Of a stretch of 22,910 nucleotides of DNA, positions 9,979-15,539 are shown one piece after another (positions within the stretch are counted from its first letter, which is position 1; each line of letters begins with the position of its first letter). The notes below the pieces were generated by a model. It was not told where the DNA came from. It saw only the letters and a list, made by a program, of their open reading frames with translations, and ran no database searches. The DNA is from a virus. The position numbers and the translations under genes were made by a program. The stretch spans positions 1 to 22,910 of the IMG/VR virus record IMGVR_UViG_3300049810_000308. The stretch is one strand, 5' to 3'.

Positions 9979-10484
9979 TATTCATTTATCCTAAACAGTG
10001 AGGCCGCAGTTCCAAGAGCCTGTGCATACACTTGCTTTCTGCCCAGCTTGGCTTGTTGCATCCCAGCTTCAGCCGCAACAATACCAGCACGAGATAGTGT
10101 CTCTGCTTCTGTAAGAGTTTTGGCAGTTTCACGAGCCGCTTGTAAGGTTATTCTTGATGACTGTTCAGCCGCATCTTCAACAACACGCTTACTAATAGCA
10201 TCAAGCGTATTGTCAGTCATATTCATATATCCGGCAGTTGCTCCTGCAACAGCCATCCAGTTACCCAGTTCACGAACAATATCAACGTGCTGTTGACTTG
10301 CCGCCAGTTTAATATCAGGAATGGTGTTGCGAAACTGCTGTGCTTGTCTAGCACTTTGCACAGACTGAGCAACAGCGACTTGTTGCTGTGCCGCAACAGA
10401 CTTCATGCCAGCCGTTGCGCTTACATAGCCAGCCGCCCCAGTAAGAGTTGCCTCACCCAAAAGATCCCAACGAAAATCCGACAT
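9978..10484 (-). CDS. Internal virion protein, T7 gp14-like by position
   Basis: A 168-residue protein (T7 gp14 has 196). ATG at 10484 and TAA at 9978-9980 each share one base with the adjacent genes. The sequence alternates small hydrophobic stretches (LTGAAGYVSATAGM near residue 13; NWMAVAGATAGYM near residue 76) with Ala/Gln-rich helices (AAQQQVAVAQSVQSARQAQQ and ITLQAARETAKTLTEAETL). Members of this group are small core proteins that insert in the outer membrane during ejection. The place between tail tubular protein B and the gp15-like gene supports this. No other function is suggested by the sequence. Confidence 0.85.
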   Translation of the reverse strand: MSDFRWDLLGEATLTGAAGYVSATAGMKSVAAQQQVAVAQSVQSARQAQQFRNTIPDIKLAASQQHVDIVRELGNWMAVAGATAGYMNMTDNTLDAISKRVVEDAAEQSSRITLQAARETAKTLTEAETLSRAGIVAAEAGMQQAKLGRKQVYAQALGTAASLFRINE

Positions 10485-12712
10485 TATACAATCACCTCAA
10501 TAACCATCCCGTTAATCTGGAGATCAAACGGAACATCTTGGGATATTGTTAGTTTTGGATCCTGACTATACCCCAACAATCTAAACTCTTTTCTCCCATT
10601 GAACTTGGTTCGTGCAAGAGAAAAATCATCAGTAACAGATCTTATAACAAGATCCTTGCCATTTACAGATACAGAAAGTGTATCAACTAAATCAAGAGTA
10701 ACCATCACAATATGGCGTGGGTCACTGGTCATAACACCAGTTGCAATGTTAGCGTCAATAGGCAGGGTCACAAGTTCAATATCAAACTGATAGCCTATAT
10801 ATGCAGTAGATACAGACTTAACAGCAGACACATCTACCTGACCACCAGACACAGTATATTCTCCAAGATAGTCTGTGCCACTTACAACCTTCACAGTTGC
10901 GCCATTTGCAAACTCACCAGATACAGTAAAGACACCATTAGACCCGGAATACTCCTTGGAGTAATCCATCGGAATACCCTCAAGAACTTCTTCCAGATAG
11001 TAAGCATTGGAGCCAGAGCCATTGTCTCTTTGTACAGCTACAAACAAACGCTGACCGACAGTGCAGATGCTATGGAACTTGCCGCTAGTTGACCATTGCG
11101 CCCAGCCAGCCTTACGCTCTGACCTCAGTGAGTAAAACGTACTAAGCGTTCCATCTGGATTCACAAAGTAAATGTAACTTTCTGGTCTGTTAAACCCACC
11201 CTGCACAACAGTTGCCTGAGTTGGGTTCTTTACAAGATGTGGTGCAGTCACAGCAATGTTGCTGGTGTTGTAAGCAAGTTCAGCATCATTATAGAGATAT
11301 GAACCTACCATCCTACCATTTGCTTGCAGATATATGGTGGTTCCATCAAACGCTTGAGGCTTGAGATCTGCCGCACCAAAAGCTGTCTGACGCTTTACCT
11401 GTGCATTAGTTGGTGTAATCGGACGCTCTGTCAAAGCAGGAACATACGCCTCTGAAGACGTTCCGAATACTTGCAAGTCACGATTAGAGACTAGATGCTT
11501 AACCTGACTAAACGCACCAAAGCCACCATTGATTTCAATGCCATCATTATCTCGTGCATCATTCAAAGCAAAGTTAAAGTAGTCAGCAGACTTGGATGCC
11601 CAAAGAAAGTCTGGCTGAGAAGGTGTGCCACCAAACCACAGTCTATTTTCGTGGAATGTTACCGCTTGAGGGAATCCTCGTACAGTTGAGTAACTTTGTT
11701 CTTGAAAGTCTGTAGTCGCTCCGGTGCTTGCGACACGAGGCGATCCACCACCAATCTCACTTGAATTGGCAGTTGCACCCGCCGTAATCTCGTAAGTATT
11801 GTCATCAATAATTTCAGCAATCGTCCGACTACCATTAATAGAGTTTGCATTAATACCGCCAACAGTATCAGCACGATCAATAGTAACAGTGGCACTTGCC
11901 GATAGGCCGTGATTAGGATGTGTGACAACCACTCTATTACTGCCATTGACCGTGTGGAGAGCATCAATAGATAGTTGCTTTCTAATCGTTCCATATACTG
12001 TAGCCGTAACCACTGTAGAACTTGTGAAGGCTGTAATTTCGCAATGGGTGTCATGTATTTTAATATACGATCCAACATGGTCACTCGTAAAATATGCAGA
12101 ACTTGTTGTTAGTGTAACGCCAGTTCCACTTGTTGCAGAGGGTGTAATAGTAACGCCATTACCTTGAAAATCATAATAAGGCTGACCAACTTTTGTGTTA
12201 CCAGCAAAGGTATCAAACTCAAAGTTTTCTACCTGAAAGGTAGTCAGTCCAGTTCTTACAATAACTCGTGGTGCAAACTGAGAGTGACACACAAACATAA
12301 AGTCACCATTAGTTGCATAAGAAAACTGCTCAAGACGCGCTGTTGTCCAAGGCAGGGCGGCAGAGTTTACATCCTGAGTAATCGTTTGGATGCTAGTTAC
12401 CGCACCAGTAGTAGGGTTAATTTGGAATACTTCTAATCTAGCGTTGCTAAATGCAAAGATATACCTTTCGTCATCAGAAAAAACAAAAGGCTCAAGGCGC
12501 AACTCAAACCTACCTGTAGATACAGCAGGACTGCTAAATGCCGCAATCCGGCTCGTGCCGGGGCGTTTCTTCAGACCACCCTCAGTAAGAATGGAAAGAT
12601 TCTTAATTGTGCTAGCACCAGCTTTGTATACTTCAGTATCTACACGGGAGGTAAACGAGGGACTCAGTTCGCCAAACTCAAAGCTGTTGATAGGAATCTT
12701 TATCCTTTGCAT
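10484..12712 (-). CDS. Tail tubular protein B (nozzle), T7 gp12-like
   Basis: A 742-residue protein (T7 gp12 has 794). ATG at 12712 shares one base with the TGA of tail tubular protein A (TGATG). The N-terminus carries the family-typical stretch INSFEFGELSPSFTSRVDTE followed by YKAGASTIKNLSILTEGGLKKRPGT. The rest is mostly beta-rich, with Ser/Thr/Val/Gly strands, a motif FPQAVTFHENRLWFGGTPSQ near the middle and VNPDGTLSTFYSLRSERKAGW further on, both common in marine podovirus nozzle proteins. In the virion six copies form the nozzle below the gp11 ring and carry the fibres. Confidence is high because gp11-like, gp12-like and core genes appear in the canonical order. Confidence 0.93.
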   Translation of the reverse strand: MQRIKIPINSFEFGELSPSFTSRVDTEVYKAGASTIKNLSILTEGGLKKRPGTSRIAAFSSPAVSTGRFELRLEPFVFSDDERYIFAFSNARLEVFQINPTTGAVTSIQTITQDVNSAALPWTTARLEQFSYATNGDFMFVCHSQFAPRVIVRTGLTTFQVENFEFDTFAGNTKVGQPYYDFQGNGVTITPSATSGTGVTLTTSSAYFTSDHVGSYIKIHDTHCEITAFTSSTVVTATVYGTIRKQLSIDALHTVNGSNRVVVTHPNHGLSASATVTIDRADTVGGINANSINGSRTIAEIIDDNTYEITAGATANSSEIGGGSPRVASTGATTDFQEQSYSTVRGFPQAVTFHENRLWFGGTPSQPDFLWASKSADYFNFALNDARDNDGIEINGGFGAFSQVKHLVSNRDLQVFGTSSEAYVPALTERPITPTNAQVKRQTAFGAADLKPQAFDGTTIYLQANGRMVGSYLYNDAELAYNTSNIAVTAPHLVKNPTQATVVQGGFNRPESYIYFVNPDGTLSTFYSLRSERKAGWAQWSTSGKFHSICTVGQRLFVAVQRDNGSGSNAYYLEEVLEGIPMDYSKEYSGSNGVFTVSGEFANGATVKVVSGTDYLGEYTVSGGQVDVSAVKSVSTAYIGYQFDIELVTLPIDANIATGVMTSDPRHIVMVTLDLVDTLSVSVNGKDLVIRSVTDDFSLARTKFNGRKEFRLLGYSQDPKLTISQDVPFDLQINGMVIEVIV

Positions 12713-13299
12713 CAGCTTCTCCTTTCAGCAGTAAACCTCGATGTTGCAAGTTTGCGAGAAGTCTGTTGCTGACTATCAAGTGACCTTGCTTTACGCATGG
12801 CAACTTCATACTTGCTTTCCATAAGTTGTATTAGATTTGGATCTCGTGCAATGCTTCCGGCAAATACAGAAGCCATTGCGTACTCTACCGCAATCGTAAA
12901 GTAAGAAGGCCAGTCAATCTCAAGTGCGCGATATGTATAATCAGCAATCACAACCTGACCAGAACTAATATCAGAAAATACTTTGTCACCATAAACCTGA
13001 TATTCAAAGATTATATCACTTACAGTGAGAGCGTGGAGCATAAGCAAATCGCTTGGAAGCTGGTGCGCTATATCATAACGACCACTAGGAGCGTTGGTAA
13101 GTTCGCTCAGTTGCTTTTGCTCAGTTGCAAATCTCCAGCGAGAAGAGCAAAGGTTTGTACGAGCAATATCCTCATACATATTTACAGCAACCAGTGACTC
13201 AGTAGTACCATCATCAAATGAGGTAATAGGCTCTGCCCCGATTAGGATCAAAGCCCTTGCACAAATATCAATAGCTGAGTTCGATGCTGTAGATGCCAT
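12712..13299 (-). CDS. Tail tubular protein A (gatekeeper), T7 gp11-like
   Basis: A 195-residue protein matching T7 gp11 in size (196). The N-terminus reads SNSAIDICARALILIGAEPI then SFDDGTTESLVAVNMYEDI and CSSRWRFATEQKQL, the usual opening of this adaptor family. It forms a dodecameric ring between the portal and the nozzle. ATG at 13299 has no Shine-Dalgarno in the nine bases before it. Those bases directly follow a strong hairpin (13309-13330), and an AAGGA lies on the far side of that hairpin. The stop overlaps the start of tail tubular protein B by one base. Spacing to the previous gene is 38 nt, unusually wide for this tightly packed operon. Confidence 0.93.
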   Translation of the reverse strand: MASTASNSAIDICARALILIGAEPITSFDDGTTESLVAVNMYEDIARTNLCSSRWRFATEQKQLSELTNAPSGRYDIAHQLPSDLLMLHALTVSDIIFEYQVYGDKVFSDISSGQVVIADYTYRALEIDWPSYFTIAVEYAMASVFAGSIARDPNLIQLMESKYEVAMRKARSLDSQQQTSRKLATSRFTAERRS

Positions 13300-13308
13300 A
13301 ATAGGTCA

Positions 13309-13336
13309 GAGGGGGGATTGCTCCCCCCTCATCCTT
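13309..13336 (-). promoter_or_regulatory. GCAA-capped hairpin with flanking Shine-Dalgarno before tail tubular protein A
   Basis: On the transcribed strand GAGGGGGGA (13330-13322) pairs perfectly with TCCCCCCTC (13317-13309) around the loop GCAA (13321-13318), a GNRA tetraloop. AAGGA (13336-13332) lies immediately 5' of the stem. The start codon at 13299 lies nine bases 3' of it. Linear spacing from AAGGA to ATG is 32 nt, which is too far; with the stem folded it is about 10 nt. There is no T tract after the stem on either strand, so an intrinsic terminator is unlikely. The place between capsid and tail genes is also that of the T7 Tphi terminator. Structure is directly readable; function is inferred. 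Confidence 0.65.
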
Positions 13337-13337
13337 A

Positions 13338-13607
13338 TTAGTCACTGTCTGTCGCGGTTACAGTCAGACCATCAACTACGTCAATAGCTGATGCCGTTAC
13401 TGAGTTTGCGTAAGTCAGTGTCACAGCAGGTGTACCACCTGTTGAAGTTACAGCAACGATTACATCATTTGCACCGATCATGCCTACTGCATCATTAAAA
13501 TAATTTGCAGTATTTACAGTAGCAATAGTATCAGTGGTTGTGTAGTGCCACAGGTTTACACCTGAAGCTGATGCAAGGTTGGTAAGTCCAGAAGAAGCGT
13601 ATGCCAT
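13338..13607 (-). CDS. Small protein after the capsid gene, probable head accessory or decoration protein
   Basis: An 89-residue acidic, Thr/Ala/Val-rich protein with ATG at 13607 and AGGGGA about 8 nt upstream, starting 11 nt after the capsid stop. It contains SGVNLWHYTTTDTIATVNTA and YFNDAVGMIGANDVIVAV, then STGGTP and an acidic end TVTATDSD. I remember close relatives directly next to capsid genes in many marine phages, where they are left as hypothetical or described as decoration-like. The strand-rich pattern is compatible with a small beta domain, and a strong ribosome site suggests high expression. No catalytic residues are apparent. A tail or fibre role cannot be excluded. Confidence 0.85.
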   Translation of the reverse strand: MAYASSGLTNLASASGVNLWHYTTTDTIATVNTANYFNDAVGMIGANDVIVAVTSTGGTPAVTLTYANSVTASAIDVVDGLTVTATDSD

Positions 13608-13618
13608 AATCAGTCCCC

Positions 13619-14431
13619 TTAGTTATTGTCAAGAACTTCATAGACACCATTGTCATCAATAACAATAGCACCCATGGACATGTGAGCAGTTACCAGATGG
13701 GCTACTTTCTGTGGAACATAGTTCACTTCAGTAGATACATCTGAACCAACAGCAAGACCAACAGCAGAGGTGTGATAAGCAAAAGACTTACCAGCAGATA
13801 CGGCTGAAGTTGAGAATACCTTGAAGCCAAGGAATTCTTTCATGGTCATGCCACCAGCAAACGGAAGATTCTGCTCACCTACAAAGTCGCTAGAAGCAAA
13901 CTCTGTAATGTTAAACAGATCAGCGTAACCCTTCGAGTTCATCGCAAGGTAACGTCCACCGTCCTCTGGAATGTCAGCACCGCCAAAGGTTTCAAAGAGT
14001 GACAACAGGTCAGCTTTTTCAAGAGCCGAGCTTGTGTCGTGGATTTGTGTGCTGTTAGCACCAGCATCCATAGCAGTAATCAACAACTCGTCAGTCTTAC
14101 GACCCAGAGCATATGCCGCCGATTGAGCAACAGCTTGACGCTCATCAATGTTTGTTTTGAGTTCGTCAAGTTTGTCGATGTATTCGGGAGCAAAATGATC
14201 CGTCAGAGTTGCGGTTACATTTGTATGTACAAGCTCCATGCTTGTTACATCACCGTTCCGAGATTTGGTGTTGGCAACGCCTTTACCAATTTTCTGGAAA
14301 CGAGCAGTTGAACCAGTGACATTGGTTGCTTGGCGCACAGTGTTACGAAGTTTAGACCCCATACGCTGATAAGCAAGATGCACTTCAGTTTCAAACTGCG
14401 TAATAAAGGCTTGGTCAATAGTATTAGCCAT
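13619..14431 (-). CDS. Major capsid protein
   Basis: A 270-residue protein with ATG at 14431 and AAGGA about 10 nt upstream. It starts ANTIDQAFITQFETEVHLAY and continues QRMGSKLRNTVRQATNV, GSTARFQKIGKG, LTDHFAPEYIDKLDELKT and ERQAVAQSAAYALGRKTDEL. These features are familiar from marine podovirus capsid proteins with the HK97 fold. The C-terminal part has GRYLAMNSKGYADLF and a closing VTAHMSMGAIVIDDNGVYEV. It is shorter than T7 gp10A (345 residues). It follows the scaffold gene after a 141-nt gap, the widest inside the operon's structural part. No second, frameshifted form is evident at its 3' end. It should be the most abundant virion protein. Confidence 0.92.
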   Translation of the reverse strand: MANTIDQAFITQFETEVHLAYQRMGSKLRNTVRQATNVTGSTARFQKIGKGVANTKSRNGDVTSMELVHTNVTATLTDHFAPEYIDKLDELKTNIDERQAVAQSAAYALGRKTDELLITAMDAGANSTQIHDTSSALEKADLLSLFETFGGADIPEDGGRYLAMNSKGYADLFNITEFASSDFVGEQNLPFAGGMTMKEFLGFKVFSTSAVSAGKSFAYHTSAVGLAVGSDVSTEVNYVPQKVAHLVTAHMSMGAIVIDDNGVYEVLDNN

Positions 14432-15292: not shown

Positions 15293-15539
15293 TAGATTTT
15301 ACCTTTTCTGCATGTTTGATGCGCCTCTCAATGAGGCCAACTAAATAACGCTGACCCTCAAGATGTCTGAGTTCAGCGTCACTAATGTTCGGCCCACTCA
15401 CAGCTTCAATGGTTATTGAGCGAAAGTAAGACAGAACTTCTTTGCCAAGATCGTCCGTAAACAATGCTTGAATATTTTGAGATATCTTTTCATCTACCGC
15501 TTTAGGGCGCGGAAACCCATCAATAGATATGTTTGACAT
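15285..15539 (-). CDS. Bbp19-like small protein between portal and scaffold
   Basis: An 84-residue protein with ATG at 15539 directly after the portal stop (TAA then ATG). It contains DDLGKEVLSYFRSITIEAVS and SDAELRHLEGQRYLVGLIER. That is the pattern of the small Bbp19-type phage proteins (named after Bordetella phage BPP-1), where a G-x-x-x-L helix is followed by an E-G-Q-R helix. The family's function is unknown; members lie among head genes of podoviruses. The gene overlaps the scaffold start by 8 nt, so the three genes portal, this one and scaffold are probably translated in step. Family membership is from memory of the motif. Confidence 0.85.
   Translation of the reverse strand: MSNISIDGFPRPKAVDEKISQNIQALFTDDLGKEVLSYFRSITIEAVSGPNISDAELRHLEGQRYLVGLIERRIKHAEKVKSNE

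Follow-up and report, generated by a model that had tools for sequence, protein, structure and literature searches.

Related systems

In bacteriophage T4, an RNA structure between the Shine-Dalgarno (SD) sequence and the AUG of genes 25 and 38 shortens a suboptimal spacing, from 27 to 11 nt in gene 25 and from 22 to 5 nt in gene 38 (PMC3014915). Destabilising mutations cut initiation in both genes, and the gene 25 structure was also probed (PMC3014915). In E. coli thrS, as summarised where the work is cited, the ribosome-binding region is broken by a hairpin that stays folded when accommodated (Sacerdot 1998, cited in PMC3936740). Hairpin-bridged ribosome sites have few proven cases and are textbook curiosities.

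Comparative analysis of sequences argues strongly for a split ribosome-binding site at the start of a phage tail tubular protein A (TTPA) gene, arranged around a capsid/tail punctuation hairpin that lacks a U-tract. The window, i.e. the whole stretch analyzed, is the 22,910 nt of IMG/VR record IMGVR_UViG_3300049810_000308, a 22.9-kb virus fragment. The arrangement is kept in many lineages of uncultured, mostly marine podoviruses, where there are natural length variants and switches to an ordinary SD. Reports of this arrangement in these phages were not found in the open-licence literature.

The TTPA site is similar to T4 genes 25 and 38 in that a hairpin lies between the SD and the AUG of a phage gene, here with a reduction in spacing from 27–45 to 6–10 nt. 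It differs in that the phages are unrelated and the gene is a podovirus TTPA behind a capsid module, in that the hairpin, which is at the terminator position of outgroups, is conserved well beyond the range of the split SD, and in the repeated switching between split and ordinary SD. The T4 sites are proven by mutation, whereas the TTPA site is likened to them on anatomy and comparative evidence. Unlike thrS, where the cited summary has a single-stranded ribosome-binding domain upstream of the hairpin, the TTPA site has the SD itself upstream; by the same summary the thrS leader is autoregulated, whereas no regulator is known for the TTPA site. In T7, Tphi is at the map position of the TTPA hairpin, after the capsid gene and before the gene for tail tubular protein A, as the first-pass annotation of this DNA had pointed out. 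Tphi has a U-tract and is followed by an ordinary SD (AAAGGAGG before gene 11), whereas the window hairpin has neither.

The TTPA junction in the window

All genes of this region are on the minus strand. The TTPA gene (12712–13299) encodes 195 amino acids and matches the tail protein phrog_394 (E-value = 1.7e-33); its match to Pfam Tube is just under the cutoff. Upstream is an 89 amino acid gene (13338–13607) of phrog_18004, function unknown (E-value = 2e-20), which comes after the major capsid protein gene (13619–14431, Phage_capsid_2, Pfam E-value = 6e-62). The tail tubular protein B-like gene (10484–12712, phrog_376) has an ordinary strong SD, AAAGGAGA, with -8.6 kcal/mol at 5 nt. By sequence, the nearest cultured relatives are Pelagibacter phage Hodr and Methylophilales phage MEP301.

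The order of elements at the junction, on the minus strand, is TAA TAAGGAT GAGGGGGGA GCAA TCCCCCCTC TGACCTATT ATG. The stop codon TAA of the upstream gene (13340–13338) is followed by the distal SD AAGGA (13332–13336), with an anti-SD duplex of -4.9 kcal/mol, and one base further on by a 9 bp hairpin (13309–13330, -19.0 kcal/mol) composed of the stem arm GAGGGGGGA (13330–13322), the tetraloop GCAA (13321–13318) and the stem arm TCCCCCCTC (13317–13309). A 9 nt spacer without an SD, TGACCTATT (13300–13308), separates the hairpin from the TTPA ATG (13299–13297). The hairpin, the AAGGA and the ATG are thus where the first-pass annotation had placed them, and its spacings of 32 nt unfolded and about 10 nt folded agree with the 32 nt linear and 10 nt folded found here. 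The linear distance is non-functional for an SD and there is no other SD in range, while the stable hairpin brings the folded distance into the functional range. The 20 nt before the TTPA ATG display no anti-SD pairing (energy 0), which bears out the claim that no SD stands just before it. Most other genes in the window have anti-SD energies of -4 to -9.9 kcal/mol at ordinary spacing. The gene starting at 15539 likewise lacks an SD in the final 20 nt of its leader, and any hairpin there is weak (-4.5 kcal/mol).

No other uninterrupted stem-loop in the window is as stable as the TTPA hairpin. The runner-up (-14.9 kcal/mol, 13639–13676, minus strand) is within the 3′ end of the major capsid gene. 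Twenty shuffled 22.9-kb windows gave a mean best hairpin of -15.5 kcal/mol and two of them attained -19, thus the window value is only moderately unusual and hairpin strength alone proves little. The local fold at the junction is -34.1 kcal/mol (z = -2.64). A search of the window against Rfam gave no match.

The distal SD had been drawn as free. Its position stands, but full accessibility does not, since the AGG of the SD (13333–13335) pairs weakly with CCU of the spacer (13303–13305) in the minimum-energy fold. Extension of the stem by AGG:CCU pairing was considered as a general sequestration device; it is present in the window clade and little beyond, and was rejected. Also rejected was an ATG inside AAGGATGAGG, whose frame reads through the hairpin for 8 codons and meets a TGA before the TTPA start; this frame is lost in a related locus (L194, GATAAGG) and is not conserved.

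The window hairpin is GC-rich in the manner of an intrinsic terminator. A U-tract is absent after it on the mRNA strand, where TGACCTAT comes next, and a terminator scan calls it only on the plus strand, where no gene reads into the hairpin.

Comparison of capsid/TTPA junctions

Viral contigs were scanned with five TTPA queries and combined with annotated phages, which gave 388 usable loci and 177 distinct capsid/TTPA junctions from short-tailed phages of a large, uncultured and mostly marine group. A strong hairpin, with an energy under -12 kcal/mol, is present within the 75 nt that precede TTPA in 170 of the 177 junctions. The final 75 nt of the gene itself served as control site, where such a hairpin is present in none of the 177 (median -2.5).

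Four classes of junction were distinguished. In class A (n = 51) the SD lies immediately 5′ of the hairpin, with the ATG 6–9 nt beyond the hairpin. Class B (n = 80) has the hairpin followed by 16–25 nt that contain an ordinary SD. Class C (n = 40) includes the Pelagibacter phage Hodr clade and others, and has the hairpin with no clear SD. Class D (n = 6) has no strong hairpin; two of these are HTVC010P-type phages with an ordinary SD, and in the other four (the L170 group) both hairpin and SD are absent and stop and start are 6 nt apart. Three loci (L166, L168 and L169) are counted as junctions without an SD and not as split sites. The 40 class C junctions and the four close relatives with neither element show that TTPA can be translated without a hairpin or a clear SD. 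As 40 junctions keep the hairpin with no clear SD, bridging is not its sole role.

The window clade retains AAGGA, and its relatives have stronger AGGAG forms. In several loci (L012–L018 and L046) the phrog_18004-type gene is missing and the same element is found directly behind the major capsid gene. In HTVC010P and HTVC034P (L083:3877–3905 and L088:3880–3904) a hairpin with TTTTT runs right up to the ATG of a small gene that precedes TTPA, and no SD was found outside the stem for this gene.

Loss of the AAGGA with gene order kept had been named beforehand as evidence against bridging. Such junctions do occur; however, among the 120 hairpin junctions that lack a split SD, 80 carry an ordinary SD after the hairpin, which strengthens the bridging interpretation.

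SD position and spacing

Class A is defined partly by its SD, therefore the unbiased comparison uses the hairpin-to-ATG distance alone. This distance is bimodal across the junctions. At an anti-SD cut of -4 kcal/mol, junctions with a spacer of up to 10 nt (n = 64) have an SD before the hairpin in 41 cases and after it in none, and those with a spacer above 10 nt (n = 107) have it before the hairpin in none and after it in 74. With a laxer motif cut, five junctions have an SD on both sides. The Fisher p of the before/after table is 7e-13, on junctions that share kinship. On quick trees from a short protein, about 10 changes of SD arrangement are needed, and well-supported branches hold five independent switches, each either neutral or in the direction expected and none contrary; with only five independent pairs the sign test is not significant. 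Two class A loci (L266 and L311) are nested in a class B clade, and two of class B (L049 and L054) adjoin the window's clade. The arrangement proven in T4 seems to have evolved and switched repeatedly in these phages.

Class A hairpins are 20–38 nt long. The linear spacing in this class is 27–45 nt (mean 32.2, sd 5.5, n = 51), and the folded spacing is 6–10 nt (mean 7.4, sd 0.9, n = 51). Hairpin length and folded spacing are not correlated among the 51. The SD spacing is therefore kept in relatives over the whole range of hairpin lengths, and a constant folded spacing is the pattern that would be expected if the ribosome senses the folded and not the linear distance. The split arrangement is specific to this gene, i.e. 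4154 ATG starts of open frames of at least 80 codons were scanned in the loci and 47 split-SD sites were found, with all 47 at TTPA.

These data bear on the function of the hairpin as nothing other than a terminator or 3′-end stabiliser, a counterpart of Tphi to which the upstream AAGGA is irrelevant. Tphi itself and outgroup hairpins with U-tracts are at this junction, and the hairpin is conserved even without a visible SD. However, the split-SD class has no U-tract (0–4 T in 8 nt, runs of three at most), and such a function leaves unexplained both the constant folded spacing and the presence of an SD before the hairpin exactly where there is none after it. This explanation appears quite improbable.

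Covariation and energetics of the hairpin

Covariation was analyzed in class A, on 27 distinct hairpins with four-base loops. Six of the nine stem pairs change on both sides and 95% of cells pair; doubly changed cells number 55, compared with 17 in shuffles. The stem scores 0.567 for covariation and shuffles score 0.171, with none of 500 shuffles as high. Sliding to shifted registers destroys the signal (score at most 0.151). The arms thus covary, and the structure is conserved through compensatory changes in relatives with a split SD. In near relatives of the window the outer stem pair is G-C, G-U or A-U. The loops interchange GNRA, UUCG and UAAC, and others are 14 nt long. Covariation, together with constant folded spacing, supports the likeness to T4 genes 25 and 38 that the first-pass annotation had proposed.

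Melting of the hairpin has a computed median cost of about 23 kcal/mol, and freeing the SD, spacer and ATG with the hairpin retained costs about 3.5 kcal/mol. The gain from anti-SD pairing is about -3 to -8 kcal/mol across junctions. In the window, freeing the SD from its AGG-CCU pairing costs 5.3 kcal/mol against a gain of -4.9. On this balance the window site is probably modest, and stronger sites would be expected in relatives with AAAGGAG.

A process of termination and reinitiation would place a different meaning on the AAGGA, which would hold ribosomes that have ended at the capsid-module stop until they slide to the TTPA start, with the hairpin incidental or just shortening the path. This is partly compatible with a split site and the confidence in the two overlaps. 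It agrees with the position of the SD directly after the stop in the split class, and with the 6 nt from stop to start in the hairpin-less L170 group. The covarying hairpin, the folded spacing held constant over hairpins of such different lengths and the cost of melting are all contrary to it, and reinitiation as the explanation is doubtful.

T7 late messages are cut by RNase III, and the strong stems at the capsid/tail junction, with an extended stem-bulge-stem in the MEP301 clade, could be processing sites of this type where a cut separates the capsid and tail messages. However, in the split-SD class a cut within the hairpin would part TTPA from the one SD that it has. In addition, most of the stems are 8–10 bp (9 bp in the window), which is short for RNase III. 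Processing is thus a very remote prospect here.

Proposed mechanism and origin

The split site would function as follows. The SD AAGGA stands right behind the capsid-module stop, with the stable hairpin next and the start codon 9 nt on. We infer that the 30S subunit binds the distal SD by base pairing and takes up the hairpin in its folded state, which would give an effective spacing of about 7–10 nt instead of 27–45 nt. One hairpin may have two jobs, i.e. that of a spacer-shortener for the tail gene and that of punctuation or 3′-end protection of the capsid message. The dual role is probable because the U-tract is absent and the SD is in front of the hairpin in this clade. The further role that the first-pass annotation raised, in setting the tail-to-capsid protein ratio, finds no support here.

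A hairpin with a U-tract is found in Vibrio phages, Pseudomonas AF, Yersinia YeP5, Rhodobacteraceae MD07 and a faecal contig, either at the junction that is homologous or at the first one after the capsid gene, and mostly an ordinary SD follows. The hairpin itself is probably older than the split SD, since relatives and outgroups have it at the same junction, sometimes with a U-tract. In class A the U-tract has been lost or was never present. The parsimonious order of events, on trees with no formal rooting, would be a terminator-like ancestral hairpin with movement of the SD to its front, possibly several times. The first-pass annotation had argued against a terminator. It was correct that a U-tract is missing, but a complete separation of the site from termination is not supported, as outgroups carry U-tract terminators at this junction.

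Gene finders and predictors of ribosome-binding sites will label genes of this type as SD-less. The natural set of hairpins offers ready variants for measuring accommodation of hairpins by the 30S subunit.

Similar patterns at other genes

A protein-free DNA pattern representing AAGGA-hairpin-ATG (AAGGA, GGGGG, CCCCC and ATG) was run over viral contigs and gave at least 120 matches. Among the matches listed, 51 of 120 are at TTPA, and these include divergent TTPAs outside the first set. A control with GAAAG in place of AAGGA gave 85 matches in all with 3 at TTPA, and one with GTA in place of ATG gave 52 in all with none at TTPA. The three GAAAG matches at TTPA all contain AAAGG themselves, thus this control is contaminated and overstates the background.

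Matches at SU10-type capsid, family-A DNA polymerase and small HTH genes point to a site split around a punctuation hairpin as a general, recurrent phage device behind abundant proteins (capsid, replication protein), although this generalization is tentative and somewhat less than an even prospect.

Five loci (L436:9668–9706, L416, L420, L435 and L443) have AAAGGAG, a hairpin, 8–9 nt and the ATG of a family-A DNA polymerase gene. L518 has the same layout at another gene, which by eye is DNA cytosine methyltransferase-like. In these loci the gene is directly behind one matching phrog_9528, and the hairpin arms vary. These sites are likely a second split SD, as judged from their layout.

A small HTH-like gene (YSQ... 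family) is found in nine loci (L449, L476, L495, L540, L550, L551, L568, L607 and L608) behind a phrog_27714 gene ending in DDW. Here the SD comes after the stop codon and is followed by a hairpin with varying arms, with the ATG 5–8 nt on. This is a likely third candidate for a split SD.

Behind the SU10-type major capsid gene, two loci (L412:4578–4622 and L486:5995–6030) show AAAGGAG, a hairpin and ATG. L412 and L421 have a U-tract between hairpin and ATG.

Eight loci (L419, L456, L469, L473, L475, L491, L498 and L438) have short conserved frames of 33–53 aa (MQQLEQARTSKLIS...) with AAGGAG, a hairpin of varying loop and ATG in front. These may represent either a small gene or a segment of an RNA element.
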